From the NCBI RefSeq assembly GCF_009759685.1, contig NZ_CP046654.1, forward strand, positions 310,001 to 374,000: a stretch of DNA of 64,000 bases, in the 5' to 3' direction. This document shows, in pieces, positions 5,416 through 37,842 of the stretch. Both the position numbers and the translations under genes were made by a program. The stretch is from Acinetobacter baumannii. GTDB taxonomy: Bacteria > Pseudomonadota > Gammaproteobacteria > Pseudomonadales > Moraxellaceae. Under the pieces are notes generated by a model. The model did not search any database. It saw nothing but the letters and a program-made list of their open reading frames with translations, and was not told the DNA's origin. How positions within the stretch are numbered: position 1 is the first letter of the stretch; each line of letters opens with the position of its first letter.

Positions 5416-6858
5416 ATGTCAAATGCTTATCAGCTCATTTGGTTTCGCCAAGATTTGCGTATACATGATCATGCAGCTTTATGGCACGCCAGCCAGCAAG
5501 GACCTTCACTCGGTTTAGTCATCTTATCGCCAGAGCAATGGAAACAACACGCCGATGCTCCAATAAAAATAGGTTTTTATTTACGACAACTCAGAACGCT
5601 TCAGAAAGAGTTAGCAGCACTGCATATTCCACTAGTTATTCAAGTCATTCCCTATTGGAAAGAGATCGCAAACTTTATTTCTGATTTCAGCAAGAAATAT
5701 AATATTGAAAACGTGTATGCCAATATCGAAATAGGCGTAAATGAATTAAAAAGAGATAAAACGGTACAAGACTATTTAAATCGGCATGGCAAAGAACTAT
5801 TTTTATTCCATGACCGTACTATTTTTCCTTTACGTTCAATCCGTAACCAATCACAACAACCATATCAAGTATTTAGTGCATTCAAAAAAGCTTGTTATAC
5901 AAAGCTCGACACAAGCGGTTTACCTCAATGTTATCCGGTCCCTAATAAACAAAATGAAGTACCACTAGATTTTTTACAGGGGAAAAATATTGATTTAGAC
6001 GAAATTGAAAAACTATTTTGCCCATCTCTCTCAAAAGAACAGCAAGATTTATGGCCTGTTGGCGAACAATACGCATTAGAACAATTAGATCAATTTATTG
6101 AAGAATCGGTTTGTCACTATAAACTCGAGCGCGATTTTCCTCATATACAAGGTACAAGTAAGCTTTCGCCTTATTTAAATATTGGTATTTTATCTATTCG
6201 ACAGTGTTTACAAGCACTCTTTCGTAATCAACATGGCAACTTTCACTTAGTCAATGAGGGCCAACAAATATGGTTAGACGAACTTCTTTGGAGAGAGTTC
6301 TACCAACATATTTTATTTGATTTTCCGCATGTTTCTAAACACATCCCGTTTAAAAAAGATACTCAGAAGATTAAATGGAACCATAATCCAGAACATTTAA
6401 CCGCATGGCAAACGGGTCAAACCGGTATTCCTATTGTTGATGCTGGGATGCGACAACTTTTACAAACAGGCTGGATGCATAATCGAATACGTATGATTAC
6501 GGCCATGTTTTTATGTAAAAATCTTTTGATTGATTGGCGCATTGGTGAACAATGGTTTATGCAACATTTAATTGATGGTGACCTCGCCGCAAATAATGGC
6601 GGTTGGCAATGGTGTGCCTCAACAGGAACAGATGCCGTACCTTATTTTCGGATTTTCAACCCAATTGCTCAATCAAAGAAGTTTGATCCGGAGGGTGAGT
6701 ATATTCGCCAATGGGTGAAAGAATTGGCTCATTTGGACAATAAAACGATTCATGAACCCTACTCAAGCAAAACCGATCTTGGTTTAAATTATCCAAAACC
6801 CATAGTAGATTTAAAAGAAACACGCCTTAAAGCAATTGAAACTTTCAAGAATATTTAG
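5416..6858 (+). CDS. phrB: Deoxyribodipyrimidine photolyase
   Basis: A 480-residue class I CPD photolyase, which uses blue light to split cyclobutane pyrimidine dimers. The N-terminal alpha/beta antenna domain begins LIWFRQDLRIHDHAAL. The C-terminal FAD-binding helical domain holds the family signature: WMHNRIRM, then DGDLAANNGGWQW, then the ending PYFRIFNP. No membrane or signal sequence. It stands alone, with an AT-rich leader after the slyD terminator. Confidence 0.96.
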   Translation: MSNAYQLIWFRQDLRIHDHAALWHASQQGPSLGLVILSPEQWKQHADAPIKIGFYLRQLRTLQKELAALHIPLVIQVIPYWKEIANFISDFSKKYNIENVYANIEIGVNELKRDKTVQDYLNRHGKELFLFHDRTIFPLRSIRNQSQQPYQVFSAFKKACYTKLDTSGLPQCYPVPNKQNEVPLDFLQGKNIDLDEIEKLFCPSLSKEQQDLWPVGEQYALEQLDQFIEESVCHYKLERDFPHIQGTSKLSPYLNIGILSIRQCLQALFRNQHGNFHLVNEGQQIWLDELLWREFYQHILFDFPHVSKHIPFKKDTQKIKWNHNPEHLTAWQTGQTGIPIVDAGMRQLLQTGWMHNRIRMITAMFLCKNLLIDWRIGEQWFMQHLIDGDLAANNGGWQWCASTGTDAVPYFRIFNPIAQSKKFDPEGEYIRQWVKELAHLDNKTIHEPYSSKTDLGLNYPKPIVDLKETRLKAIETFKNI

Positions 6859-7051: not shown

Positions 7052-7792
7052 ATGCAACAAAAACACCCCGGTAGAACACTCGTCTTATGGATTATCGCAG
7101 CTCATCTATTTATGGGAATGGTTGCATACGAGTGGCTGCCTGTGAGTTTTAGAGGAAGTTGGATTTTTATTCTTCTTCTTTTAATTTCAGGTGCTTTTTT
7201 AGAAGTCGGTTTGTCTTTAATTGTAGGTTTAGTCGCTTTTATTGGGGTTGCCGTATACTTTTTACTCGACTTAGGCGCACAAACACATATTGAACGTCAG
7301 TTACTTTTATTATTCATTATTCCCCTAATACCGCTCTTTCTAAGTGCTGTACGCCACAATATTGAAATTAATGTACAGAAATACCGTGATATTCAAAGCT
7401 ATGACCGAAATTATCGCCGCGATATTTTCCCGCTCAGTGCTTTAAAATACTTTCAGCGTAGTTTTTTTAAATTACTTGATCACCACAATGTACAAGATTA
7501 TGAAGTATTCGAAATTCGAATTCTTAATCGCAGTCTAATTAAAGAAATGTTAGGCGATGATGTCTGGAAAACAACTCAAAATGAAATGATTAAAATTTTA
7601 AGCCAGCATGAACCCAACGAGATTGTTTTCCAGTTTGCAGATGATGATCTGGAAAATATTTACAGTATTATGATTCGCCAGCAGAAAACAGAAGAAGACC
7701 CTATATTCTTAAAAAAATTAAAAGAAATTACGACTTTGCGTCTTGAGGTGGAATACAAAATTGTTCCTATTCCACCTGAGGAGATGAGCTAA
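7052..7792 (+). CDS. Four-TM membrane protein with a degenerate GGDEF-like cytoplasmic domain
   Basis: A 246-residue protein, first in the exopolysaccharide operon. Four hydrophobic segments lie near residues 9-26, 35-52, 53-72 and 83-102. The cytoplasmic part (about 110-240) follows the layout of a GGDEF domain: the segment RRDIFPLSALKYFQRSFFKL sits where 'LTGLxNRRxF' is expected, 'EIRILN' at the first core strand, and 'EMLGDDVWKTTQNEMIKIL' at the 'FKxINDxxGHxxGDxxL' helix. No GGDEF or RxxD motif is present, so it should not make c-di-GMP. By analogy to PelD it may be a receptor or scaffold. The GGDEF relationship is inference from pattern; the membrane part is clear. It overlaps the next gene by one base (TAATG). 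Confidence 0.8.
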   Translation: MQQKHPGRTLVLWIIAAHLFMGMVAYEWLPVSFRGSWIFILLLLISGAFLEVGLSLIVGLVAFIGVAVYFLLDLGAQTHIERQLLLLFIIPLIPLFLSAVRHNIEINVQKYRDIQSYDRNYRRDIFPLSALKYFQRSFFKLLDHHNVQDYEVFEIRILNRSLIKEMLGDDVWKTTQNEMIKILSQHEPNEIVFQFADDDLENIYSIMIRQQKTEEDPIFLKKLKEITTLRLEVEYKIVPIPPEEMS

Positions 7793-8688
7793 TGTCTAAT
7801 CTTCTTAATATTTGTGGAATTGTAATCGCCTCTAGCCAATATCCAGATGCCACATTACAACAGTTCTATCGACAATATTATCATTGCGAAATTAAAGCTG
7901 AGCAAATAAAAGCCGAGGTTCAAAGTCCTAGTGATCTTTCCATGTTTTTCCCTTACCAAGATACATGGTGGCCTGTCTTTACGATTGATCAGATTAGCTC
8001 TGAAAGTTTCCAAAAGTTTATCCATAACGGAATTAGACCCGGCATTATCTTGCCAGACGAAGTATTCGGTTTTCCTCACTATTTCTTGTTAAAAGAAGCA
8101 GTAAGCCAAGGTGCTATTCCTATTGTGCTTTTTAAAACTGAACAACCTCAATATTTTGCCGCAAAAGCAACTTTTTCGACCGCTATTGGTTTACGCCCAA
8201 TGGCTGCTTTTGTGAGTACAGGATGGGATGAAAATTTAATTTCTCAACCAGCGGGTAGTTATATTATCCAGCTAAATTCAGCAAATTTACCATTACCCTC
8301 AAGAGAAGTCAGACAAGGCCCACATTTATTTTACTCGGCCAAGAGTTTTAACGGCCATGTTTCAGGTTATGAAATTATCATTAATCCCCCTGCCGATTTA
8401 CCTCTATCTAATATTCGATATCCTCAACTCGGCATTTCTTGGAACTTTAATAATATTGATTATGAGAGTACTCCTGAACATGTAAGTACGAATCTTATAG
8501 GTTATATATTTATTATTTTAAGTATTGTTGTTGTTCCACTTGACCTGATTTTAACAACGACGTATCCGGATCTACTCGGTACATTTGGTAGCTATATTTC
8601 ATGGATCTCCTTAGTGGTCGGGGCAATTTTATTATTGCTGCTCATCTCTTCTATTATTAGGAGGGTCCGTAAAAATGGCTCCAATTGA
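7792..8688 (+). CDS. Uncharacterised protein with two C-terminal TM segments, exopolysaccharide operon
   Basis: A 298-residue protein I do not recognise. The first 230 or so residues are soluble, without signal peptide and with mixed alpha/beta character. Two TM segments follow, near residues 233-255 and 265-287, ending in a basic tail (RRVRKNGSN). The topology suggests a cytoplasmic domain tethered to the inner membrane. Its start overlaps the stop of the gene before it, and its end overlaps the synthase gene by 14 bp, so translation is probably coupled. A role as accessory subunit of the synthase is inferred from context only. Confidence 0.8.
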   Translation: MSNLLNICGIVIASSQYPDATLQQFYRQYYHCEIKAEQIKAEVQSPSDLSMFFPYQDTWWPVFTIDQISSESFQKFIHNGIRPGIILPDEVFGFPHYFLLKEAVSQGAIPIVLFKTEQPQYFAAKATFSTAIGLRPMAAFVSTGWDENLISQPAGSYIIQLNSANLPLPSREVRQGPHLFYSAKSFNGHVSGYEIIINPPADLPLSNIRYPQLGISWNFNNIDYESTPEHVSTNLIGYIFIILSIVVVPLDLILTTTYPDLLGTFGSYISWISLVVGAILLLLLISSIIRRVRKNGSN

Positions 8689-9925
8689 TATCCTGTTTTT
8701 ATTTGGCTTTTTAGGTATTTGGATTCCACAAGCATTTTGGGCATGGTTAAGCTATCAAGCGTGGAAGTATTCCAAAACGGCTGAAAAAGAGCTGCAAAAC
8801 TTACCAATACCAGAAAGATGGCCAGTCTTAAGTGTTTTGATCCCTGCTTATAATGAAGGCGTTGTGATTGAGGACACTTTGCATGCCATTGCTCAACAGG
8901 ATTATCCGGCAGAGTCTTATGAAGTCTTACTGATCAATGATGGCTCCAAAGACAACACCCTTGAAATCGCAGAAAACCTCGCAAAAATTTATCCTTGCAT
9001 AAAAATTGTCAATGTACCCAAAGGTATGGGTGGTAAAGGTAAATCAAGAACGCTTAATAATGGTCTTCCTCATGCCAAAGGTGAGCTAATTGTTGTTTAT
9101 GATGCCGATAGTACTCCTGAACCCGATTGCGTCCGATTACTTGCCCAAACCTTGTTAGCCGATAAAAAGTTAGTGGCGGTAAATGGCAAAGTCAGAACCC
9201 GTAACTGGCAAGATAGTATTTTGACTCGCTTTATTGCGATTGAATTCATCTTTTTCCAATGGATCTTTCAAGGTGGACGCTGGCAACGTTTTGAACTATC
9301 AACATTAATGGGAACAAATTATGTCATCTGGCGCGATGCTCTAGAGACTTTGGGCGGTTTTGATGAAAAATCGTTAGTGGATGATACAGAAATGAGTTTC
9401 CGAATTTTTATCGGACAAAAACGAATTAAATGGGTTCCCTATGCAATTGGTTGGCAACAGGACCCTCCTTCGTTAAGCGTATTCGTTAAACAGCGCTCAC
9501 GCTGGACTCAAGGTAATTTTTATGTAACACGCAAATATTTACCCGTAGCACTGAGAACTCCATTCCCAATCGGAATTGAAATTCTAAATAACATTATGTG
9601 CTATATCCTTTTTGTACCGGCTTTATTCTGGAGTCATATTACCTTAACGCTTGGCTTACTTGATATTGCAGGTATTTCAGTTCCTGGTCCATTTACACTA
9701 CTGTGGGGACTCTCATTTTGTCTCTATGTAGCACAAATGTGGTTTACGCTTTCTTTAGAAAAAGTTAAACCAGAACTTTACTTTTACTCGGTCTTATCTT
9801 ACGTAAGTTATTCACAAATCTTCTTATTTATTGTGTTTAAAGCCGCGTTCGACATGCTAAAAAATAAAATACAGGGCAACTCCCTTCAATGGTACAAAAC
9901 GGAACGTAGCAAGGAGAAAAAATAA
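8675..9925 (+). CDS. Processive family 2 glycosyltransferase (exopolysaccharide synthase, NfrB/PgaC/BcsA-like)
   Basis: A 416-residue inner-membrane GT2. After one N-terminal TM segment the cytoplasmic domain shows the processive synthase motifs: the nucleotide-binding NDGSKD, the metal-binding DAD, the catalytic-base region VDDTE and the acceptor motif QRSRW. Four or so TM segments follow from about residue 305. A strong AGGAGG lies 9 nt before the ATG. There is no PilZ domain (as in BcsA) and no C-terminal MshEN-type domain (as in NfrB), so any c-di-GMP control must come through a partner. With a UDP-GlcNAc 2-epimerase in the same locus, UDP-ManNAc or UDP-GlcNAc is the likely donor (inference). 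Confidence 0.93.
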   Translation: MAPIDILFLFGFLGIWIPQAFWAWLSYQAWKYSKTAEKELQNLPIPERWPVLSVLIPAYNEGVVIEDTLHAIAQQDYPAESYEVLLINDGSKDNTLEIAENLAKIYPCIKIVNVPKGMGGKGKSRTLNNGLPHAKGELIVVYDADSTPEPDCVRLLAQTLLADKKLVAVNGKVRTRNWQDSILTRFIAIEFIFFQWIFQGGRWQRFELSTLMGTNYVIWRDALETLGGFDEKSLVDDTEMSFRIFIGQKRIKWVPYAIGWQQDPPSLSVFVKQRSRWTQGNFYVTRKYLPVALRTPFPIGIEILNNIMCYILFVPALFWSHITLTLGLLDIAGISVPGPFTLLWGLSFCLYVAQMWFTLSLEKVKPELYFYSVLSYVSYSQIFLFIVFKAAFDMLKNKIQGNSLQWYKTERSKEKK

Positions 9926-11770
9926 ATGAAAAAGACTTTTGATCTTTACCAAACAGCTCAAGTGCTCCTTGCCAGCACCAGTTTTTTGCTTGGCATGTCT
10001 ACTCATGCTTATACATGGAAACTCGACGATATTAGTACCTCGACTAAATATACAGTCGAGCCTCACTTTTTCTATATTGGAAAAGGTGCTGAATGGCAAA
10101 ACATTCAGTTTTCGAGTGACTACTCAACTGAAAATGACACAACAGTACTCGTCAAATATGACGATAAGCTCATTTATAACACTACGCTTAATGGTGATGG
10201 CCAATTCAAATTTAATATTCCTGCCAGCCAGAGCGGTTTTCACCGTTTAGATTTTATTATTCAACAATATGCAAAACCAACGACGCTTAACCAAACAAAA
10301 GAAACATTCTGTACAGAAGATATTGATCACTTAACTTATTTGAGTAATTCCCAACTCGACTTTACGCCTGTTCGAAATGAGTACCGTTTAAAAGATCTAC
10401 CGGACGCTTTATTTAACCCTCAGGCTAGACGACCTACACCTTTTGTCGGGATCTTAAAATATAACCGTAAAGAAATTACCGAAGCCTCTATGTTGGGCCG
10501 ATTAGTAAGTTCGTGGAGCTCCGTAACGCCAATTGAATGGGTTGATTCAGGCCAAACCAATCTAAATCCTGAAACGAACTTTATTATTGAAGTGATTCGT
10601 TCGGCAAGCCCACTCAAAGGAGGAGCCTTAGTACAAATTGCTAAACCGGCTGAAGGTGTACCGACGCTATCTATTACTTATCACACTCCACAAGAGCTTA
10701 CCGCTGCCATTAACGGGCTAATTAATCCAACTTATGTGCAACAGCTTGATACGGGCAGCGCTATTTTTCCAACTACAATTTCAGCACCAACTTGGGCGCA
10801 ATTTAAAAAAATTGATACGCTTGCAGATCTAGGTATTCAGGATTTTCGACTAAATCATGCCGAAAAGAATTTATTTCTTGATTTTCCGGCAGTATGGCAA
10901 CCTACTGATATTCTGCAAGGGCAAATCGCACTTCGTATTCAAAGTGGACTATTACAAGGTTCAAACATTACAGCATGGATTGATGGAGGACTTGCAGGAA
11001 GTATGAAAACGGCGGATCTCGCATCCGACCCTGTAAACCGACAGTTCAACATCTTTGCCAAGGAAATTTCAAATACAACCAACTTTAGCTTAAAACTTGA
11101 AAACTCGGTTATTGCCAACTCTCAATGTTTACCCAATGCTCACGGCTCACTCTGGGTTGATACCGCCAAATCAACGGTAAAACTTCCCCATAAACTTAAA
11201 AATGGTGTTGCCGCTCTTTCAATGACCTTAGCCACCAAGCCAACAATCGCAATTGATGACCAATCCGGGGCATTAAATATTGCCATTATTTTAGGACAAG
11301 TCGCTAAAAATATGCTGCTGACACAAGCACCAATGCCAGTGAACCTAGTACGCTTTTCTCCGACCTCTCCACAAGCAGTGAATGTGAGAGTGAACAAAGA
11401 GATTTATCAGCAACAAGTCTTAATGCATCAAAATATTATTTATGCACCCGCAGCAGCGAATGGCTTTATCGTAAGTTATAACAATAACCGCTTCGATGTA
11501 ATTACAGACTCTGAAAACGGTGCACAAACCTTTATGCATTTATGGGGAAAAATACAGCATAAAATCCCAAATAATGTGACCAAAATGCTAGTGTCTGAAA
11601 ACGGCAATATTTATGTTCTTCAAAAATTAATTGTAGGTAATCAAAAAGCGCCATTAGTTCAGCAATCATCATTCTTTTTATTAGTTGTGATTATCTCTGC
11701 AATTATGATAATAGTGATCTTCTTGTGGTATTGGTTACGACGTAATAATGAAAAAACAGATACCAATTAA
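9926..11770 (+). CDS. BcsB-like periplasmic exopolysaccharide protein
   Basis: A 614-residue protein with an N-terminal signal sequence (ending near THAYT), a long beta-rich periplasmic region, and one C-terminal TM segment near residues 582-603 followed by a short basic tail. This is the layout of BcsB, the periplasmic cellulose synthase partner that guides the nascent chain out of the synthase. Carbohydrate-binding and flavodoxin-like modules alternate in BcsB; sequence here is compatible (for example FNIPASQSGFHRLDFII). The ATG directly follows the synthase stop codon, with AAGGAG inside the end of the synthase gene. The bcsB symbol is not given because no cellulose synthase is present. 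Confidence 0.85.
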   Translation: MKKTFDLYQTAQVLLASTSFLLGMSTHAYTWKLDDISTSTKYTVEPHFFYIGKGAEWQNIQFSSDYSTENDTTVLVKYDDKLIYNTTLNGDGQFKFNIPASQSGFHRLDFIIQQYAKPTTLNQTKETFCTEDIDHLTYLSNSQLDFTPVRNEYRLKDLPDALFNPQARRPTPFVGILKYNRKEITEASMLGRLVSSWSSVTPIEWVDSGQTNLNPETNFIIEVIRSASPLKGGALVQIAKPAEGVPTLSITYHTPQELTAAINGLINPTYVQQLDTGSAIFPTTISAPTWAQFKKIDTLADLGIQDFRLNHAEKNLFLDFPAVWQPTDILQGQIALRIQSGLLQGSNITAWIDGGLAGSMKTADLASDPVNRQFNIFAKEISNTTNFSLKLENSVIANSQCLPNAHGSLWVDTAKSTVKLPHKLKNGVAALSMTLATKPTIAIDDQSGALNIAIILGQVAKNMLLTQAPMPVNLVRFSPTSPQAVNVRVNKEIYQQQVLMHQNIIYAPAAANGFIVSYNNNRFDVITDSENGAQTFMHLWGKIQHKIPNNVTKMLVSENGNIYVLQKLIVGNQKAPLVQQSSFFLLVVIISAIMIIVIFLWYWLRRNNEKTDTN

Positions 11771-12653
11771 AATAACTGCTTTTATTATTTTAATTATATG
11801 TAGTGTAGTGGGTTATGCGGGGTTGTTCAAAAATCATGGGCAACCTCCCATTATTGAGGGTATTTTCTGGCAACCTGACAATGATACTACTCCTCCTAAA
11901 GGAAACTGGCATTACTTAGGAATAAATACTTTTGTTCCCCAATGGTCAGTCGTTGAATCTAAATCTTGGTGGAAAAACTCCAATCTTCCTCAATGGGAAA
12001 AAGCCATTGATTTACAAAAAATTAAACAGCAACCTTGGGCCAAAAATCTTATATTGGGGCTAGCAGGTGAATATAATGAACACGAAGCGCGTGCTAATGT
12101 CGTTGCTTTGGGTGAAAAATCTGCACAAATTATTCAAGAACAAAATGATACATCTTTAAAAGGCTATTATTTTCCAGTAGAAGCCGACCCAACATGGCTA
12201 AGAGTAAGTACCTTAGGACATGTTTTGGAAAAATTACCCTCACCTATTTGGGTTAGTGTTTATAGTGGTGAAAGTGAACCTGAAAACTACGATTTATGGG
12301 TTAAAAGCTGGCTTCCTCAACAAGCAGGCGTTTTTTTCCAAGATGGTGTAGGTGTCGGAGTACGAACTCCCGAACAAGCTAGACGTATTTTAGATCAACT
12401 TGAACAGACACTTGGAAAAGATAAAACGGTTATTGTTTTAGAAGCATTTCGAACCAAGAAAAATGGTCAATTTCGTGCAGCCTATCCTTGGGAAATTATC
12501 TCTCAAATTAAGGCGTATGAAGGGAAAAAAATTTATATTTTTGATGGCCCCCACTATATGGGCCGATGGTCCGTTTATATTGTCGGTCTATGGTATCGAC
12601 TCGTTTATGGCAGCACACCCGCCACCATAAACGAACCCAAAAACTCAAAATAA
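11748..12653 (+). CDS. DUF4434/YbcH-like periplasmic protein, putative glycoside-hydrolase-fold
   Basis: A 301-residue protein with an N-terminal signal anchor (residues 8-27) followed by a soluble periplasmic domain. The segment IIEGIFWQPDND, the Trp-rich WHYLGINTFVPQWS, and the strand-loop pattern (GLAGEYNEH, YYFPVEAD, WVSVYSGE, VIVLEAF) suggest a TIM-barrel as in the DUF4434 family and E. coli YbcH, whose gene neighbours nfrA and nfrB. That assignment is recalled, not searched. It overlaps the preceding gene by 23 bp. A role in trimming, binding or modifying the exported polymer is inferred from position. Confidence 0.8.
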   Translation: MKKQIPIKITAFIILIICSVVGYAGLFKNHGQPPIIEGIFWQPDNDTTPPKGNWHYLGINTFVPQWSVVESKSWWKNSNLPQWEKAIDLQKIKQQPWAKNLILGLAGEYNEHEARANVVALGEKSAQIIQEQNDTSLKGYYFPVEADPTWLRVSTLGHVLEKLPSPIWVSVYSGESEPENYDLWVKSWLPQQAGVFFQDGVGVGVRTPEQARRILDQLEQTLGKDKTVIVLEAFRTKKNGQFRAAYPWEIISQIKAYEGKKIYIFDGPHYMGRWSVYIVGLWYRLVYGSTPATINEPKNSK

Positions 12654-12660
12654 ATGATCT

Positions 12661-13797
12661 CTAGTTATAAGTTCTGGCAATTTCATCTAATATTCGCTGG
12701 GCAGCACGTCCATCACCAAACGGATTTTCAACATGAGCCATTTTTTGGTAATGCTGCGAATCCGTTAAAAGTTTCTCAGCCTCTTCAATAATTTTCTGCT
12801 GATTTGTTCCAACCAATACCCCTGCTCCCACCTCTACCACTTCCGGGCGTTCAGTCGTGTCTCTTAAAATTAAGACAGGCTTATTAAATGATGGGCTTTC
12901 TTCTTGTAAACCACCAGAGTCCGTTAAAATAAAGGTGGAGCGGTCGATAACGGCCAATAAACTTGGATAATCGAGTGGCTTCACAAGATGAATTTGAGCA
13001 TGACTTTTAAATTTATCGTGCACTACATTATGTACAGCAGGATTTAAATGTACAGGCCAAATAAAATGTAAATCAGGATGCTGTTTTGCTAAATACTCAA
13101 CAGCATTACAAATATTCTGAATTCCTTCGCCAAAATTCTCACGGCGGTGAGCAGTTATAAGTACAACTTTATCGTTTTGTTTTAATTCAATTCCGTAAGG
13201 CTCAAGTTGATTTTTCAAACCTGTCTTTTCAGCTATGAGTTTCCTTCCTAAATATACAGCATCAACTACCGTATTTCCTGTCACTGTAATCAATGAAGGT
13301 GGAATCTGCTCATTTAACAAGTTACGCTTTGATTGTTCTGTAGGGGCAAAATGCCATTTGGTAATACGAGAAACTAACTGACGGTTGCCTTCTTCAGGAA
13401 ACGGATGATCTAAATCATAAGAACGTAAGCCTGCTTCGACATGGGCAACAGGAATCTTCATTGAAAATGCAACTAGCCCAGCAGCTAACACGGTTGTAGT
13501 ATCACCTTGAATAACAATTGCATCTCTTTTTTGACCATCTGTATAGATATTTTCAAGTTGCGTTAAGCCATGAATTAAAAGCTGATTTAGGCTTTGTCCA
13601 GCATTCATAATTTTAAGGCGATGGTCAATTTCAACCCCAAAGAAATCTATCGCATCTCGAACTAATTCATCATGTTGTCCTGTAAAAATAACTTCTACCT
13701 GAAATCGTGAGTCTTGTTTTGCTAATAAAATTACCGGAGCCAACTTTATGAGCTCTGGACGAGTACCAAATACAATTGAAATAAAAATTTTCTTCAT
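12661..13797 (-). CDS. wecB: UDP-N-acetylglucosamine 2-epimerase (non-hydrolysing)
   Basis: A 378-residue cytoplasmic enzyme converting UDP-GlcNAc to UDP-ManNAc. Family motifs are complete: GTRPELIKLAPV at the N-terminus, QGDTTTVLAA, HVEAGLRS, FPEEGNRQLVS, TAHRRENFG and TDSGGLQEE. Also called mnaA. AAGGAT precedes the ATG and lies in the end of the upstream gene, so the two are transcribed together. In this locus its product is the obvious sugar donor for the GT2 synthase. Its 3' end faces the synthase operon with a gap of 7 bp and no clear terminator. Confidence 0.95.
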   Translation of the reverse strand: MKKIFISIVFGTRPELIKLAPVILLAKQDSRFQVEVIFTGQHDELVRDAIDFFGVEIDHRLKIMNAGQSLNQLLIHGLTQLENIYTDGQKRDAIVIQGDTTTVLAAGLVAFSMKIPVAHVEAGLRSYDLDHPFPEEGNRQLVSRITKWHFAPTEQSKRNLLNEQIPPSLITVTGNTVVDAVYLGRKLIAEKTGLKNQLEPYGIELKQNDKVVLITAHRRENFGEGIQNICNAVEYLAKQHPDLHFIWPVHLNPAVHNVVHDKFKSHAQIHLVKPLDYPSLLAVIDRSTFILTDSGGLQEESPSFNKPVLILRDTTERPEVVEVGAGVLVGTNQQKIIEEAEKLLTDSQHYQKMAHVENPFGDGRAAQRILDEIARTYN

Positions 13798-13799
13798 TA

Positions 13800-15020
13800 T
13801 TAGAAATCCTTATAAAAAACAAGTTCTACACGAGTATTGTTGTAATGATCTTTTGTATTAACCGGTACGTCTTTAAAATAATTGCCATATAGACGTTCAA
13901 CCCGTAGTTTTATCGGTTGATAATTAAAAGGCTGCCATGAAATGCCTGGACCATATTCAAATAAATTATTGTAATATTCATCTTCGCTATCCGCTAAGCC
14001 ATGCAATTTCACATAAGCCTGCACAGTCCCACTCTCACCCTTATAGAGATTTAAACCTGTGCGTAAGCGTAAGTCCCCAATAACGTTATAGTCCTCTCTC
14101 GAATAAGTCGCGACATTGCCATACAAGTCAGTAAAATAATTATCTAAACAAAGTGAATGATCGCAGTTTGATTGTGAATACCATTCTTGATAACCCGTTA
14201 CACCGCCTACAACACTCTCACGAAATCGCTTTCTATTTCTATCAATCAAGTCATAACTTCCACCAACTTCGACATAGGCTCGCACAGGAATGGAAGTCCA
14301 TGGTTGATAATTTGCCCCCACCCCTAAAGTGGCTGCATTTTCATCAATAATTTCAGGTCGGACCCCACCTTGTGATTGAGTATCGCGGTTTAAATTAAGA
14401 AAGCCATATACTTGGGCTCGCCCGTTATCGATGTTTTTGCCATACCTCATTTTTAAAGGAAAAATAACATCGTCATACCGTGACTCATAAGACGGTGCAA
14501 AATAAATATCTCTAAAATATGGTTTAACTTCTCCCCCACTTAAATTTTTAACTGCCTGAGTTGCTTTAGCAGCAATTTCAGGGTCTGAAGAGGAACTTAA
14601 CTCTTTAAATAAAACCAATGCTTCACGATCTTTTTTCTGCTGATTCAGCAAATAAGCTTCTTGTAATTTTAAGGTGTCATCTTGAGGAGCTAAATTTCTT
14701 GCTTGTCTTAAGCTTTGTAAAGCTTCTTCCCTTTTTTCAAGTCGAATCTGTAAATAAGTAAGACTTTTCCAGACTTTAATATCGGTTGGTGTCAGTTTAC
14801 TAAGCTCAACTAATATTTTTTCTGCTTCTTGCGGTTGAGACTGTTCAATTTTATAAAATCTATCCCATTTATCATAAATAGGGTTACCGGGCTTATATGC
14901 AGGGTCGACTTGCTCTTGTGCATAAACTGAACTTATACCGATCATTCCCAAAGAAGAGATCACTGCTCCCATCAGTAATATTGAATGTGTTATAGAGTTT
15001 ATTGTTTTGATATTTTTCAT
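13800..15020 (-). CDS. Outer-membrane TPR/beta-barrel exporter (NfrA/PgaA/BcsC-like)
   Basis: A secreted protein of 406 residues: signal peptide ending VYAQ, about three TPR repeats (residues 30-165, with helix pairs such as DIKVWKSLTYLQIRLEKREEALQSLRQAR), then a beta-rich C-terminal half of alternating amphipathic strands ending in Phe, as outer-membrane barrels do. The segment YGPGISWQPF and the closing strands recall the C-terminal region of NfrA, the phage N4 adsorption protein. The barrel is small beside PgaA or BcsC, and NfrA is much longer. The ATG at 15020 has GAGGTG upstream; the in-frame GTG at 15026 lies inside that SD and is rejected. Likely the export pore for the polymer. Confidence 0.83.
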   Translation of the reverse strand: MKNIKTINSITHSILLMGAVISSLGMIGISSVYAQEQVDPAYKPGNPIYDKWDRFYKIEQSQPQEAEKILVELSKLTPTDIKVWKSLTYLQIRLEKREEALQSLRQARNLAPQDDTLKLQEAYLLNQQKKDREALVLFKELSSSSDPEIAAKATQAVKNLSGGEVKPYFRDIYFAPSYESRYDDVIFPLKMRYGKNIDNGRAQVYGFLNLNRDTQSQGGVRPEIIDENAATLGVGANYQPWTSIPVRAYVEVGGSYDLIDRNRKRFRESVVGGVTGYQEWYSQSNCDHSLCLDNYFTDLYGNVATYSREDYNVIGDLRLRTGLNLYKGESGTVQAYVKLHGLADSEDEYYNNLFEYGPGISWQPFNYQPIKLRVERLYGNYFKDVPVNTKDHYNNTRVELVFYKDF

Positions 15021-15272
15021 TTTCACCTCTACAGTAAATTAGACTTATTAGGGAGGGCAAGTCTTTGGAATGATCAATAAATATTATAATTAAAAATAAT
15101 AAGTTACATCGTTAAGTTAGGTTAAGGATGTTTTAAAATAATTGTTTAATCTCCATTTTTATTATTGATCTATTCTGTCTTATCCCTAAATTTCCTATAA
15201 TAATGACATATTTTTTGACCAATAAATTGTAAAATTTCATAGCATTTATAAAACATTAATAAGGAAAAACAC

Positions 15273-15974
15273 ATGGCTTTTCCACATCATACAGAGCATC
15301 ATGCCATTCAGCGCTCAGGTTGGCTAAGAGCCTCAGTATTAGGCGCTAATGATGGCATTATTTCAGTGACTAGCTTAATTATGGGGATGGCTGCAAGTGG
15401 GGCAAGCTCACATACTCTATTTATCACTTGTGTTGCCGGGCTCATTTCAGGCGCAACCTCAATGGCTGCCGGAGAATATATTTCTGTTAAATCTCAAGAA
15501 GATATTGAAAAATCAGATTTAGCTATTGAGGCAAAAGAATTAAAAAAATACCCTCAAAAAGAATTGGATGAATTAACTCAAATCTATATTTCTAGGGGAC
15601 TTTCAAAAGAACTAGCAAAGGAGGTAGCTATTCAGCTTACAACTCATGATGCTTTGGGTGCACATGCCCGAGATGAAATCGGTATTCATGAAAATACGGC
15701 GGCAAACCCAATTCAAGCAGCACTCTCCTCAGCAGCTTCATTTTCATTTGGGGCATTTTTCCCCATGCTTGCCATTTTGTTTAGCCCAGAGCATTTAATT
15801 ATGCCAAGTGTCCTTATTACAGGTATCGCGGCATTAGCAATTTTAGGTGCCCTTTCGAGTTATTTTGCAGGCACTTCTAAAATCAAAGGTAGTTTACGTA
15901 TTACCTTATGGGGTATTTTAGCGATGGCTTTTTCAAGCTGGATTGGTTCCTTATTTAATGTCACTCCTTTATAA
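15273..15974 (+). CDS. VIT1/CCC1 family iron/manganese transporter
   Basis: A 233-residue membrane protein with the family signature at the N-terminus (GANDGIISVTSLIMGMA), followed by GATSMAAGEYISVKSQEDIE and a charged cytoplasmic segment rich in Glu/Lys, which in plant VIT1 binds metals. Three further TM segments fill the C-terminal half, giving five in all. Members export Fe2+ or Mn2+ from the cytoplasm or into compartments. AAGGAA precedes the ATG. It is divergent from the outer-membrane exporter gene and has no operon partner. Confidence 0.9.
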   Translation: MAFPHHTEHHAIQRSGWLRASVLGANDGIISVTSLIMGMAASGASSHTLFITCVAGLISGATSMAAGEYISVKSQEDIEKSDLAIEAKELKKYPQKELDELTQIYISRGLSKELAKEVAIQLTTHDALGAHARDEIGIHENTAANPIQAALSSAASFSFGAFFPMLAILFSPEHLIMPSVLITGIAALAILGALSSYFAGTSKIKGSLRITLWGILAMAFSSWIGSLFNVTPL

Positions 15975-30818: not shown

Positions 30819-32255
30819 ATGGAAACTTTAGATTCTTCAATTTTTGACCTCACCCCAATTCCAATGTGGATTGAAGACTTTAGTGAAGTTAAGCAGTTAT
30901 TTGACTTATGGAGAAATCAAGGGGTTGAAAACTTATATGAATTTCTAAGCCAAAATGAAAATCTAGTGGTTGAATGTGCTCATAAAATTAAAATTATTAA
31001 GGTCAACCAAAAAGTATTAGACCTTTTTGAAGCAAAAAACCAAGAAGAGTTATGTGCCAACTTAAATCTTATTTTTAAAAAAGAAATGTTTGAAGCTCAT
31101 ATTCATGAACTCGAAGCGTTATGGAATAGCAAAACTCATTTCTCGAGTACCACTATAAATTACACGCTCTCTGGTAAACGTATTGATGTACAACTACGTG
31201 GAGCAATTTTACCGGGTTCTGAAACTACGTTTGACCGTATTTTAATTACCACCGAAGACATTACTCCGTATCAAAATGCACTTCGTCAGGAAGAGAAAAA
31301 TCGACGCCTAGCAGAGTCAATGTTTATCTACTCCCCGACTTCGCTTTGGGTTGAAGATTTTAGCCGTATTAAAAATAGAATTGATCAGCTTAGGCTATTA
31401 GGAATTGAAGACTTTAGGACTTTTTTAGATGTACATCCTGAATTTGTTCGCCAATGCATAGAAGACATTTTAATTTTAGACGTCAATCAGTCGACTCTCG
31501 ATTTATTTAAAGCACCAGATAAAACCACTCTGTTAAAAAATACCCATAAAATTTTTGCCGAAGAGATGGTGGAAACTTTTAGAGAACAGCTGATTGAACT
31601 CTGGCAAGGAAATATTCACCACAAGCGTGAAGCCGTTAACTATGCGTTAGATGGCCAAATTAGAAATGTCTTATTGCAATTTACCGTATTCCCCGGTTAT
31701 GAAGAGACTTGGGGATTGGTACAGGTTGCGCTTACAGATATTACTGCACGAAAGAAAGCCGAAAATTATCTAGAATACTTAGGCCAGCATGATGTACTGA
31801 CCAAACTTTATAACCGAGCTTTTTTTACAGAAGAGCTTAATCGTTTAAATCGCAGTATTATTCGCCCTGTTTCTTCAATTTTTTTAGACATGAACGGCTT
31901 AAAGGAAACCAATGATCAACTTGGCCATGATATTGGTGATGGTTTATTACGTCGAGTAGGTAATATTTTAAATCAGGCAATTATGAATACTGCTTATACA
32001 GCTTCTCGAATCGGTGGCGACGAATTTGTAATTTTAATGCCTGGTGCAGATGAAGCGAATGTTTTGATGATGCTGCAAACCATTCAGGAGCTTTTTAATA
32101 TAGATAATCAATATTATTCAAGTCATCCTATTAGTATTGCGATTGGGCACGCCACAACAAAAGAAAATGAACAAGTTGAAGATATGCTAAAACGCGCAGA
32201 TCATCATATGTATCAAAAGAAAAAAAGTTATTATCAAGAAATTCTTCTACCATAA
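30819..32255 (+). CDS. Diguanylate cyclase with two duplicated PAS-like sensor modules
   Basis: A 478-residue soluble protein. Residues 8-149 and 169-309 are two copies of one PAS-like module with matching landmarks (PMWIEDF and SLWVEDF; VLDLFEA and TLDLFKA; VNYAL and INYTL; LITTEDIT and VALTDIT). A GGDEF domain follows, with the intact GGDEF at 399-403 and the metal-binding FLDMNGLKETND. It should make c-di-GMP from two GTP. The RxxD inhibitory site is absent before GGDEF (sequence MNTAYTASR), so product feedback is unlikely. No TM segment; no EAL domain. It is near, but not in, the exopolysaccharide locus. Confidence 0.93.
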   Translation: METLDSSIFDLTPIPMWIEDFSEVKQLFDLWRNQGVENLYEFLSQNENLVVECAHKIKIIKVNQKVLDLFEAKNQEELCANLNLIFKKEMFEAHIHELEALWNSKTHFSSTTINYTLSGKRIDVQLRGAILPGSETTFDRILITTEDITPYQNALRQEEKNRRLAESMFIYSPTSLWVEDFSRIKNRIDQLRLLGIEDFRTFLDVHPEFVRQCIEDILILDVNQSTLDLFKAPDKTTLLKNTHKIFAEEMVETFREQLIELWQGNIHHKREAVNYALDGQIRNVLLQFTVFPGYEETWGLVQVALTDITARKKAENYLEYLGQHDVLTKLYNRAFFTEELNRLNRSIIRPVSSIFLDMNGLKETNDQLGHDIGDGLLRRVGNILNQAIMNTAYTASRIGGDEFVILMPGADEANVLMMLQTIQELFNIDNQYYSSHPISIAIGHATTKENEQVEDMLKRADHHMYQKKKSYYQEILLP

Positions 32256-34128: not shown

Positions 34129-36090
34129 ATGACAGCTTGGCAAAGATTAGGAATAGAACCAACAGATAACCAGAGAGAAATAAAAAAGGCGTATGCCAAA
34201 CAACTAAAGTTAATCGATCAAGATACCCAGCCAGAAGAATTTATTCTTCTTAGAGAAGCATTAGAAACTGCTCAATTCGAAGCAGAACATTTAATATATG
34301 AAAATGAGGATTTGGATAACTCATCCTCTATATTTGAAGAAAATAATTCTTTTAATGACCAAAATTTAAATTCAGATGACTTAAATGATCAAACACTTGA
34401 AAATAAACTTAAGAGACTAAAACATCATATTGCTATTCAAGACATTAACTTTAATATACGTGATGAATTAATACATTTTAATAATGAAATTGAAGCATAT
34501 AAAGATAAAAGTATTAGCAACCATTTCAGAGATCAAATTTTAGATCTATTAAGAAAAAATGATCTTGATGATTTTTGTTATATCTTTACAGAAAAAAATG
34601 CTGAAAATATTGTCACAAACCATCAGAAAATAATTGAAAAAGAGAAAACCGAATATTCTGTTTCCAGTAACGAATGTATTCAATCAGATGCACTTAGTAT
34701 TCCAGTAATTCTTGAGGAAGTTAGCAATGCACTATGGAATAAAGATATTAGCGATATAACATTCGATAAATTCAATTATTTACTTAGTCAACAATATGAT
34801 ATTCCTCTTAGTCAACAAATAGAAATAAAAGATCAACTCCAAGCCCCTTTAGCAGAAATTGAAATTGATGATCTACAACCCGAATATTTTCGGTTTCTAG
34901 AATTGTGGCATGAAACTTATCCTGATGATATTCATCAATATAATCCATCTTATTACTCAAGCTTATTACAGGAAAAGTTAAATAGTTTTTTATCTCGATA
35001 CAAACTCTTAAAAAAGTTACCTAATGAACATTTTGAATTATTAAATGAACTTTCTGGTGAAAAAAAATTTCATCCATTAAAAATGCTCAAATTAAGAAAA
35101 AGTTTAAATAAAATTTCAAAAAACTATAGTACAGTTGAAGTTATTGATAAGTTACAGCTTTCTATCACCCAAACTAACCCTAATTACTTATTTCTAAAAA
35201 GTTTAAGCAATTTTTGGAAATTTACTATAATAAATATTCTATTTATAACTATAACCTTTCTCTTTTTTAATTCCCTTATAGCTCCAGATAATCAAATTAT
35301 AGTAAATTTATTAATTACAGTCTGCATTAGTCTGTTATATATATTTATACTACAACCTATATTAAATACCAGAATTTTAGGTCACCCTGGTTATGAAAGA
35401 ACATTGGGCTATTATCTTAAATATTGGTGTTTAAGTGGATTTATTCTCTGCAGTTTGACCCCTTGGCTTCCAGATTTACCCCATCAACTTCTAAGTTATG
35501 GATGGTTTATATCTACAACTATACTACTGAGTGCTTTGCTGCTAGATGCAACACCATATATGAATAGATTAGAGCAAAGTGCATTTATTAATATCGATAA
35601 ATGGATAATTAATATCGGTTTAATCTCTCTTAGTATTTTTCTTATTTCTATCTTTTTTATTATTGGTGAACCTAATCATATCTGGTTCATAATTTATAGT
35701 CTGATCCCGATCTGTTTCTTATTTTACCCAGAATCTTTCCGCCCTCTCTTCTATATTTTTGGATACAATAAAGAAGATACCAACTTAACAGATAAACAAA
35801 TAATGTATAGAAGTATTGGTATTATCTTCTTTAGGCTATTCTGGGTTTTTGGCTTTAGCTATTTATTTATAAAATCTTCCTCACAACCTTTTATGTATGC
35901 TGCAGGCTTGATTCTAGGAAGTATATTAATAACCGGATTTAGTGCCAAGAATCTCTCTTCTACACTTAAATATTTAACCTACATCGCCTTATGTATAGCA
36001 ACGTTATACACCATACTTTTCCCTTTGATATTAATTTATTATTTATATCAAAGCTATCAAGCAAAAAAAATCATTTTATCTAGCTGCTAA
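34129..36090 (+). CDS. Membrane J-domain-like protein, putative HscC co-chaperone
   Basis: A 653-residue protein. Residues 1-65 resemble a J domain: a short helix I start (AWQRLGIEPTDNQREIKKAYAKQLKLI) and a final helix (LREALETAQ), but the HPD loop reads DQDTQPEEF, so His-Pro-Asp is not conserved. A low-complexity acidic/Asn-rich linker follows (about 65-130), then helical segments, then about eight TM segments from residue 365 to the end. It converges with an HscC-type Hsp70 gene, as the J proteins DjlB/DjlC associate with HscC in E. coli. The pairing is inference. The gene is notably AT-rich compared with its neighbours. Confidence 0.84.
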   Translation: MTAWQRLGIEPTDNQREIKKAYAKQLKLIDQDTQPEEFILLREALETAQFEAEHLIYENEDLDNSSSIFEENNSFNDQNLNSDDLNDQTLENKLKRLKHHIAIQDINFNIRDELIHFNNEIEAYKDKSISNHFRDQILDLLRKNDLDDFCYIFTEKNAENIVTNHQKIIEKEKTEYSVSSNECIQSDALSIPVILEEVSNALWNKDISDITFDKFNYLLSQQYDIPLSQQIEIKDQLQAPLAEIEIDDLQPEYFRFLELWHETYPDDIHQYNPSYYSSLLQEKLNSFLSRYKLLKKLPNEHFELLNELSGEKKFHPLKMLKLRKSLNKISKNYSTVEVIDKLQLSITQTNPNYLFLKSLSNFWKFTIINILFITITFLFFNSLIAPDNQIIVNLLITVCISLLYIFILQPILNTRILGHPGYERTLGYYLKYWCLSGFILCSLTPWLPDLPHQLLSYGWFISTTILLSALLLDATPYMNRLEQSAFINIDKWIINIGLISLSIFLISIFFIIGEPNHIWFIIYSLIPICFLFYPESFRPLFYIFGYNKEDTNLTDKQIMYRSIGIIFFRLFWVFGFSYLFIKSSSQPFMYAAGLILGSILITGFSAKNLSSTLKYLTYIALCIATLYTILFPLILIYYLYQSYQAKKIILSSC

Positions 36091-36141: not shown

Positions 36142-37842
36142 TTAATACTCTTCAAACAAACTTAAATCTTCAATTTCATTAAGAAAAGCTTCGAAATGTT
36201 GTTGTGCCTCACGTATTTGTCTTGGATCTTGCAGATTTAGAATATAATTAAATTGTTGTGTTCGCTCTCCAATCTGTAAACGTAGATCTCCTGTATATTC
36301 ACTAAATAAACGCTCTGCTCGTAATAATAAGCTCTTATTCATTAAAGTATCACGAGGATGTATTTTCAATTCCTGCAACTGTTGACGGGCCTGCTCTATT
36401 TGTTCCGTACTCATTACATTTTGATGATTAACAATCACTTTTTGGAGCTTTTCTCCTGTGCTTGGAACTTCTATATCAACTTCTAAAATACCATTTGGAT
36501 TATAAGAGAATCGCACCTCAATAGATAAATAGTCATTATTTGGAGGTAAAGGCACATTGAGCTCACCTAAAAAAATGTTTTCTTTACACAGTCGATGTTC
36601 GCCCTGATAAATCTTAACAATAATTTCTCTCTGCCCTTTATTCATCGCAGTATACGTATTTACCTTACTGGCAGGAATTACAATATTGCGCTCTAAGATA
36701 GGTGAAAACTGCTCATCATTTTCCACTGCAATCCCTAAACTAAATGGGCAAACATCTGTTAAAACAATTTCTTTTAAAGATACATCTTTTGCTTTTAAAC
36801 CTGCTTGTACACAGGTACCACGTACAATTGCTTCATCAGGTTGGACACTTGTCGACGGAAAACGACCAAATAATTTTGTTACTAATTTGCGAACAACTGG
36901 AATACGTGTCGCACCACCTACCATAATAATCTGGTCAACCTGTTGAGGCAGGACTCTAGCATCTCTCAAGGCACGCTCTAGTGGGCGGCGTAATCTAAGC
37001 AATAATGGTTCGGCCCATACTGCGAATTCTTCTTGAGTAATTTCTAGGGTGGCCTCTTTATCTTCCCATTTAAATATTAAATCTGTTTTCGCTTCTTTAC
37101 TTAAAACATGAAGACTATGTTGTGCTCTAGCTCTTAATGCTGTTTCAATATCAAATGGAATAGTATTTTCAGTATAGCCAAAAATAGTTGCATGCTGTTT
37201 CCAGTATTGTTTCATTAACAACTGAACAAAGTCATCTCCACCTAAATAATTATCTCCTGCACTAGCTCGCACCTCAGTGATGCCATCAAACAACTCAACA
37301 ATTGAGACATCAAAGGTTCCCCCTCCTAAATCAAAAATCAGGAAACAACTATCCTGCGTTTGCCCTAAACCATATGCTAGAGCAGCTGCAGTAGGTTCAT
37401 TAATGAGTCGACTAACTTTTAAACCCGCAAGTTCTGCAGCAGATATAGTGGCTTGACGTTGGATATCGTTAAAGTAAGCAGGCACCGTAATCACGGCTTC
37501 CTCTACTTCACATTGCAAAGCCTGCTCCACATCCTGTTTAAGAGATTTTAATATCAATGAAGACAATTCAACTGCTGAAAAGCTCTGCTGACCTAATTTT
37601 AATCTTTTTGAGGTACCCATTAACCGCTTAAAACTAGTTAATACCTCTTTACCACGACTTCTTAACTCTAATGCAGCTTGTCCAATTAAGATTTGCCCTT
37701 GCTCATCCAATGCAATAGCTGAGGGCGTAGTTTTCATACCATAAGGATTATTAATAAGTTTGGACTGACCATTTTCAAAAATACCAACTAGTGAGTTACT
37801 GGTTCCAAGATCAATTGCTATAAGAGGTTTAGTATCTATCAT
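36142..37842 (-). CDS. hscC: Hsp70 family chaperone, HscC type
   Basis: A 566-residue Hsp70. The nucleotide-binding domain has [54 protein letters not shown] and [13 protein letters not shown]. The substrate-binding domain is short and the C-terminal lid is reduced, as in HscC rather than DnaK (about 640 residues), and the EEVD-like end of DnaK is missing. ATP-dependent chaperone with specialised clients. Its neighbour on the other strand is the membrane J-like protein, the likely partner. Confidence 0.93.

Follow-up and report, generated by a model that had tools for sequence, protein, structure and literature searches.

What sugar does the surface glycan contain to which broad-host-range phages of Acinetobacter adsorb, and from which of the known secretion systems does its machinery descend? 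This question is raised by seven genes in a stretch of 64,000 nucleotides of the Acinetobacter baumannii genome (assembly GCF_009759685.1, contig NZ_CP046654.1, positions 310,001 to 374,000), hereafter the window. A preliminary description had read these genes as a complete exopolysaccharide locus that resembles the Nfr system of E. coli and probably makes a polymer containing N-acetylmannosamine (ManNAc). Judged by gene content, gene order and genus, the locus is the "phage glycan receptor" (PGR, pgrA-G) set out by McCalla et al. (PMC12507263), and since PGR was described in 2025 the main finding is already known. New here are the co-occurrence of the locus with a 2-epimerase acting on uridine diphosphate N-acetylglucosamine (UDP-GlcNAc), the constraint on its synthase and, tentatively, a fold for PgrB.

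The published glycan receptor

The locus of PMC12507263 has the same seven gene types in the same genus, including a WecB homologue, a BcsB homologue, a degenerate cyclase and a porin. According to that paper PgrD is the BcsB homologue, PgrC a homologue of NfrB, BcsA and PgaC, PgrG the porin and PgrF WecB; PgrE resembles the C-terminus of PgaB in structure, PgrA is cyclase-like without a GGDEF motif, and pgrB is not named in the main text. Deletion of pgrD abolished adsorption of StAb3 and complementation restored infection, and a point mutant of pgrF (wecB) was resistant to the same phage (PMC12507263). Of 39 additional clinical isolates, infection succeeded in 31, and the 8 others had a missing or disrupted locus. 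In the same source 958 of 994 A. baumannii genomes have at least part of the locus, which is enriched in the A. calcoaceticus-baumannii complex, and its authors proposed a ManNAc-containing polymer. Taking these data together with our own, we consider it likely that a PgrC fed by WecB makes an exported, ManNAc-containing chain which serves as the receptor of StAb3-like phages.

The locus goes with a WecB epimerase

The epimerase announced in the preliminary description is confirmed by a score of 434.9 bits for PgrF against the NCBIfam wecB model TIGR00236 (cut-off 210). An assignment to the hydrolysing NeuC type was rejected (87 bits versus 435 for WecB). PgrF is the sole match in the window's genome, where no separate WecB was found.

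The survey of genomes for co-occurrence that had been proposed was run on 175 genomes of the genus, 54 with and 121 without pgrB. It applies to PGR the reasoning of PMC8669469, where the observation that wecB adjoins nfrB wherever no other wecB exists was taken as evidence for UDP-ManNAc. WecB was counted at E ≤ 1e-60 to PgrF, so that weaker epimerases (28-33% identity) do not enter the counts. It occurs in 80 of the 175 genomes, that is in 54/54 with pgrB and in 26/121 without (p = 1.3e-25).

Fifty-two of the 54 loci were examined gene by gene, the other two being that of the window and that of G108 (wecB beside pgrB by coordinates). All seven genes looked intact in 32, and wecB was absent from 16 (no match in 15, a 10% remnant in G109, which we counted as lacking wecB). 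The other six genes are intact in 14 of these 16; in G109 pgrD is split, and in G974 the locus is cut short after part of pgrC, with pgrD, pgrE and pgrG not found in the adjoining stretch. The remaining four of the 52 carry a split pgrD (G099), a stop in pgrC (G054), a stop in pgrF (G044) or a divergent pgrA with a partial match (G194). No gene other than wecB was missing alone in the 52 loci.

Another wecB elsewhere in the genome was found in all 16 genomes whose locus lacks its own copy and in only 7 of the 38 that keep it (Fisher p = 1.2e-8; G044 is counted as a keeper and is among the 7). Leaving out G109 and G974 gives 14/14 (p = 6.6e-8). On a tree of the PgrA-D proteins, built by a quick method from 53 rows (G108 not among them) and with some long branches, loss of the locus wecB corresponds to nine changes, and of nine independent pairs a mean of 8.2 agreed in direction while 0 ran the opposite way (sign test, median p = 0.008). 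The association also held in the 17 pgrB-bearing genomes that were added after a first sample of 119 genomes, with another wecB in 4/4 wecB-less genomes and 2/13 keepers (p = 0.006); without G974, which says little because its locus is broken beyond pgrC, this becomes 3/3 (10/560 = 0.018, worked by hand). The other copies pass TIGR00236 in 10/10 tested of the 16 genomes (511-528 bits). In all four genomes whose neighbouring genes were viewed they sit among surface-polysaccharide genes, namely Wza/Wzc-type genes (L131, L132), a Wzx-type gene (L125) and UDP-sugar dehydrogenase genes (L131, L132, L135).

One might object that the loci losing wecB are simply dying, the other wecB being incidental to a decaying lineage, and the further lesions of G109 and G974 would fit such a view. 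However, the six remaining genes are preserved in the other 14, wecB is the only gene lost singly, and the background frequency of wecB in genomes without pgrB is low, so that we regard lineage decay as very improbable. Since WecB accompanies the locus and is replaced after loss, UDP-ManNAc is supported as the precursor, in line with the preliminary proposal that WecB supplies it as the likely donor; the simplest reading of these genomes would be that the locus depends on UDP-ManNAc, whatever its source.

A near-frozen synthase of the PgaC/BcsA side

PgrC has all the motifs that had been attributed to a GT2 synthase: NDGS at residue 88, DAD at 143, DDTEM at 236-240 in the TED region and QRSRW at 273, and DxD, DDTE and then QxxRW are found in the PgrC of 52/52 loci. 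Its known relatives rank in the same order by BLASTP (PgaC 108 bits, BcsA 83, NfrB 29) and by profile comparison with hhalign (E = 1e-30, 1e-15 and 3e-7). Neither a PilZ nor an MshEN domain was matched in PgrC by Pfam. In a tree of synthases PgrC falls into a supported clade with four of the relatives included (among them proteins labelled Acinetobacter, Moraxellaceae and Lampropedia), apart from PgaC and NfrB. As NfrB and BcsA lie on very long branches in this tree, only the separation of PgrC from them was used and not their order. The PgrC lineage is thus, as far as protein comparison can place it, nearer to PgaC and BcsA than to NfrB.

The closeness to PgaC, the poly-GlcNAc synthase and best known relative of PgrC, raises the possibility of a locus resembling that for poly-N-acetylglucosamine, in which PgrC would polymerise UDP-GlcNAc and PgrF would serve the lipooligosaccharide (LOS) core or capsule, or modify a minor sugar only. 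Yet the 143.9 bits that PgrC scores against the PgaC equivalog model TIGR03937 are far from its cut-off of 422. The presence of WecB in all 54 genomes with pgrB, the other copy in all 16 whose locus has lost its own, the want of a separate WecB in the window's genome and the phage resistance of the pgrF mutant (PMC12507263) likewise make such a locus unlikely.

The sequence of PgrC is unusually conserved. In the A. calcoaceticus-baumannii complex the PgrC proteins of ten named loci are 97-100% identical, while identity at the four-fold degenerate sites of pgrC (nine of the ten loci) is 41-61%, much like that of the other pgr genes. For the two A. nosocomialis loci among them, such sites give higher values in pgrE and pgrF (68-79%) and lower ones in the neighbouring VIT gene (36-40%). 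In nine of 19 more distant loci PgrC retains 89-91% identity, compared with 52-58% for PgrA and 54-57% for PgrB, and in the most distant loci of the genus the values are 75-76% for PgrC and ~27-30% for PgrA. Because the silent sites have diverged, these figures argue against recent transfer and for a strong constraint on the product of the enzyme; they suggest that PgrC is near-frozen in sequence.

Searches for pgrC at E ≤ 1e-40 within the class (369 genomes) and at E ≤ 1e-50 within the phylum (398 genomes) returned the window's own genome only. Distant relatives of PgrC occur in Lampropedia, Polycladidibacter, Deinobacterium and metagenomic sequences. We also noted a partial PgrC relative in Lampropedia hyalina (P0101, 77% over 72% of the query) and a pgrB relative labelled Serratia sp. 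S1B (P0074, 44%), both of which suggest transfer or mislabelling.

PgrA, PgrB and control of the synthase

PgrA has a GGDEF fold. Reading its alignment by eye with the spacing of the GGDEF and I-site motifs, we find ADDDL or INEEL-like letters at the site of the GGDEF motif, and E187 and E190 where the RxxD of the I-site would stand. On this alignment PgrA is a GGDEF fold devoid of both the catalytic motif and the I-site.

For PgrB, Foldseek returned no significant match to the predicted model. A comparison of the model with the NodB/ArnD barrel gave a VIA-align Z just above 8, a weak value for which the tool warns of a possibly common arrangement. PgrB is therefore only tentatively viewed as a barrel of the NodB/ArnD type attached to two membrane helices. 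Deacetylases of the CE4/NodB type bind their metal through a D-H-H triad; no such triad was found in PgrB, an alignment of 27 rows having no invariant or near-invariant histidine, and H31 is near-invariant in a narrower alignment of 20 rows. The named relatives of PgrB are almost all from Acinetobacter. A PHROGs search with pgrA, pgrB and pgrE gave nothing useful.

PGR may have a cyclic diguanosine monophosphate (c-di-GMP) site of the PgaC/PgaD type. A bolder proposal, which we put forward as a possibility we rather doubt, is that PGR was assembled separately from Nfr, with a near-frozen, PgaC/BcsA-related synthase using UDP-ManNAc. Its control would fall not to the usual c-di-GMP receptor but to a membrane pair, the cyclase-fold PgrA, which lacks substrate and I-site residues, and PgrB, a deacetylase fold without catalytic activity.

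A PAS-GGDEF protein, probably a diguanylate cyclase, is encoded ~16 kb from the locus (Table 1).

PgrD, PgrE and PgrG

The "BcsB-like" label of the preliminary description holds for relatives of PgrD. The protein of the window itself has no direct BcsB match in Pfam, in the PDB or by hhalign to E. coli BcsB. Of four distant relatives, two (P0303 and P0306) pass the Pfam BcsB model PF03170, a third scores slightly below the cut-off and the fourth has no match; P0303, which is 36% identical to PgrD over 590 aa, scores 26.2 bits (cut-off 21). Through these intermediate sequences PgrD is assigned to the BcsB family. PgrE likewise gave only 25.4 bits against Pfam DUF4434, below the cut-off of 30, although its profile of 49 rows matches E. 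coli YbcH with E = 2.1e-8 over 258 columns (hhalign; BLASTP 5.6e-6), which bears out the DUF4434/YbcH-like protein of the earlier reading. The outer-membrane TPR/barrel protein stands in part, since the TPR matches of PgrG in Pfam are weak and generic and the barrel is presumed. All profile comparisons used 49-53 rows each, leaving out rows with a stop or with less than 75% coverage.

Relation to Nfr, Pga and Bcs

PGR and the E. coli NGR/Nfr system (NfrB, NfrA and YbcH with WecB; PMC8669472, PMC8669469) are alike in their requirement for WecB, a YbcH-family protein, a TPR outer-membrane protein and use as a phage receptor. Could PGR then be a true Nfr orthologue, that is the c-di-GMP-controlled system of E. 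coli with BcsB and two membrane proteins added? The synthase belongs to another branch, nearer to PgaC and BcsA, and has no match to MshEN, the c-di-GMP domain at the C-terminus of NfrB-type synthases; no similarity of PgrG to NfrA was detected by BLASTP or profile; and the only cyclase-like protein of the locus is without GGDEF and I-site residues. Orthology is thus quite improbable, and the Nfr resemblance claimed at the outset survives for the precursor, the function, WecB and the YbcH-like protein, and fails for the descent of the synthase.

With Pga the locus shares its nearest synthase and a TPR porin. It differs in a PgrC far below the PgaC equivalog cut-off, in its WecB and BcsB-type subunit, and in that no similarity to PgaD or PgaB was found by profile, although PMC12507263 reports that PgrE resembles the PgaB C-terminus in structure. 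Bcs has the BcsB-family subunit in common with PGR and provides in BcsA the second nearest relative of PgrC; in contrast, PGR has no PilZ match in its synthase, no detected similarity to BcsC, and a 2-epimerase. A combination of Nfr, WecB and BcsB-like parts is also described for Achromobacter xylosoxidans, where a BcsB homologue in the nfrA/nfrB/wecB cluster was already noted in 2021 (PMC8669472); the likeness to PGR is one of description.

A model for PGR

We infer the order of steps, the donor sugar and the roles of PgrA and PgrB as follows. PgrF would convert UDP-GlcNAc to UDP-ManNAc, the presumed donor, from which PgrC would polymerise a ManNAc-containing chain and move it across the inner membrane. 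The chain would be handled in the periplasm by PgrD and PgrE and released through the outer membrane by PgrG, PgrA and PgrB most probably acting beside PgrC in the inner membrane as its partners or regulators. Displayed beyond the capsule, the polymer would be the site where StAb3-like phages adsorb.

Several points weigh against this model. Complete loci were also carried by phage-resistant isolates, 4 of 15 for Mystique and 2 of 14 for EAb13 (PMC12507263), and the absence of any visible difference from the published locus comes from comparing descriptions and not sequences. A need for WecB shows a need for epimerase activity and not ManNAc in the chain, as literature searches found no polymer chemistry. 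With PgaC, a GlcNAc polymerase, as the nearest relative of PgrC, a GlcNAc or mixed chain is possible. UDP-ManNAc has other clients in the genus, the capsule and probably the LOS core (PMC10936431), which could inflate the co-occurrence. Finally, profile comparison found no similarity of PgrG to NfrA, PgaA or BcsC.

Layout and variants of the locus

Seven packed open reading frames (ORFs), five forward and two reverse, fill 7052-15026 as two convergent operons, in agreement with the preliminary description (Table 1). The end given there, 15020, corresponds to an ATG that lies in frame six bases within pgrG; the start listed for this gene is a GTG at 15026. The ORFs of the forward operon overlap by 1, 14 and 23 bases, and the other gaps are 0, 7 and 2 bases. 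The pgr gene order is kept across the genus, and the locus is therefore not a chance arrangement; together with gene content and families this upholds a complete exopolysaccharide locus. A scan for promoter- and terminator-like sites, not used further, gave fewer of the former than shuffled sequence (18 vs 28.1) and more of the latter (12 vs 6.2). Two of the terminator-like sites, on the forward strand, fall within the last part of pgrE (12558-12600); the 7-base gap separating the operons contains none.

Table 1. Coordinates of the pgr genes and other features in the window
Feature	Coordinates	Strand	Assignment
pgrA	7052-7792	+	N-terminal helices, ~3-4 probably membrane; degenerate GGDEF domain ~residues 109-244
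pgrB	7792-8688	+	modelled NodB/ArnD-like barrel ~55-213 (weak match); C-terminal helices 235-257 and 271-295, probably membrane
pgrC	8675-9925	+	processive-type GT2 synthase, 416 aa; nearest PgaC, then BcsA
pgrD	9926-11770	+	BcsB family (via distant relatives); apparent signal sequence and C-terminal membrane anchor
pgrE	11748-12653	+	DUF4434/YbcH-like; apparent N-terminal membrane anchor
pgrF	12661-13797	-	non-hydrolysing UDP-GlcNAc 2-epimerase (WecB)
pgrG	13800-15026	-	apparent signal sequence, TPR stretch, presumed outer-membrane barrel exporter
photolyase gene	5416-6858		flank of the locus
VIT-family gene	15273-15974		flank of the locus
PAS-GGDEF protein	30819-32255		probable diguanylate cyclase
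653-aa ORF	34129-36090		no Pfam match at E ≤ 1e-5
HSP70-family protein	36142-37842		566 aa

The genome of the window (G000) measures 3.99 Mb. Its nearest relatives in the PgrA-D tree are G008 and G189, and the nearest named loci are those of A. nosocomialis L036 and L045, to which its synthase is 100% and its PgrD 95% identical.

In A. seifertii NIPH 973 (L042) pgrD is split by ~2.3 kb of extra sequence, as it is in L057 (G099), an insert similar in kind to the insertion sequences reported in phage-resistant isolates. The in-frame stop in pgrC of L062 (G054) lies at residue 178. A Moraxellaceae genome of a sister genus (G146) has two copies of the locus (L090 and L091) ~16 kb apart, one without a pgrE match and the other with a stop inside pgrD. 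Elsewhere in the window, the 653-aa ORF lies in a 28% GC stretch, the lowest 2-kb block, and an HSP70-family protein is encoded nearby.

Implications

Acinetobacter phages of broad host range use the glycan as a receptor, and such phages are of interest for combating drug-resistant infections. The co-occurrence of the epimerase with the locus, and its natural replacement by other copies, make the question of UDP-ManNAc directly testable. If PGR was indeed assembled separately, ManNAc glycans, used by broad-host phages as receptors, would have arisen convergently from two synthase systems that are distantly related. That the synthase is near-frozen suggests that different species make the same chain, and this would partly account for the broad host range of these phages.

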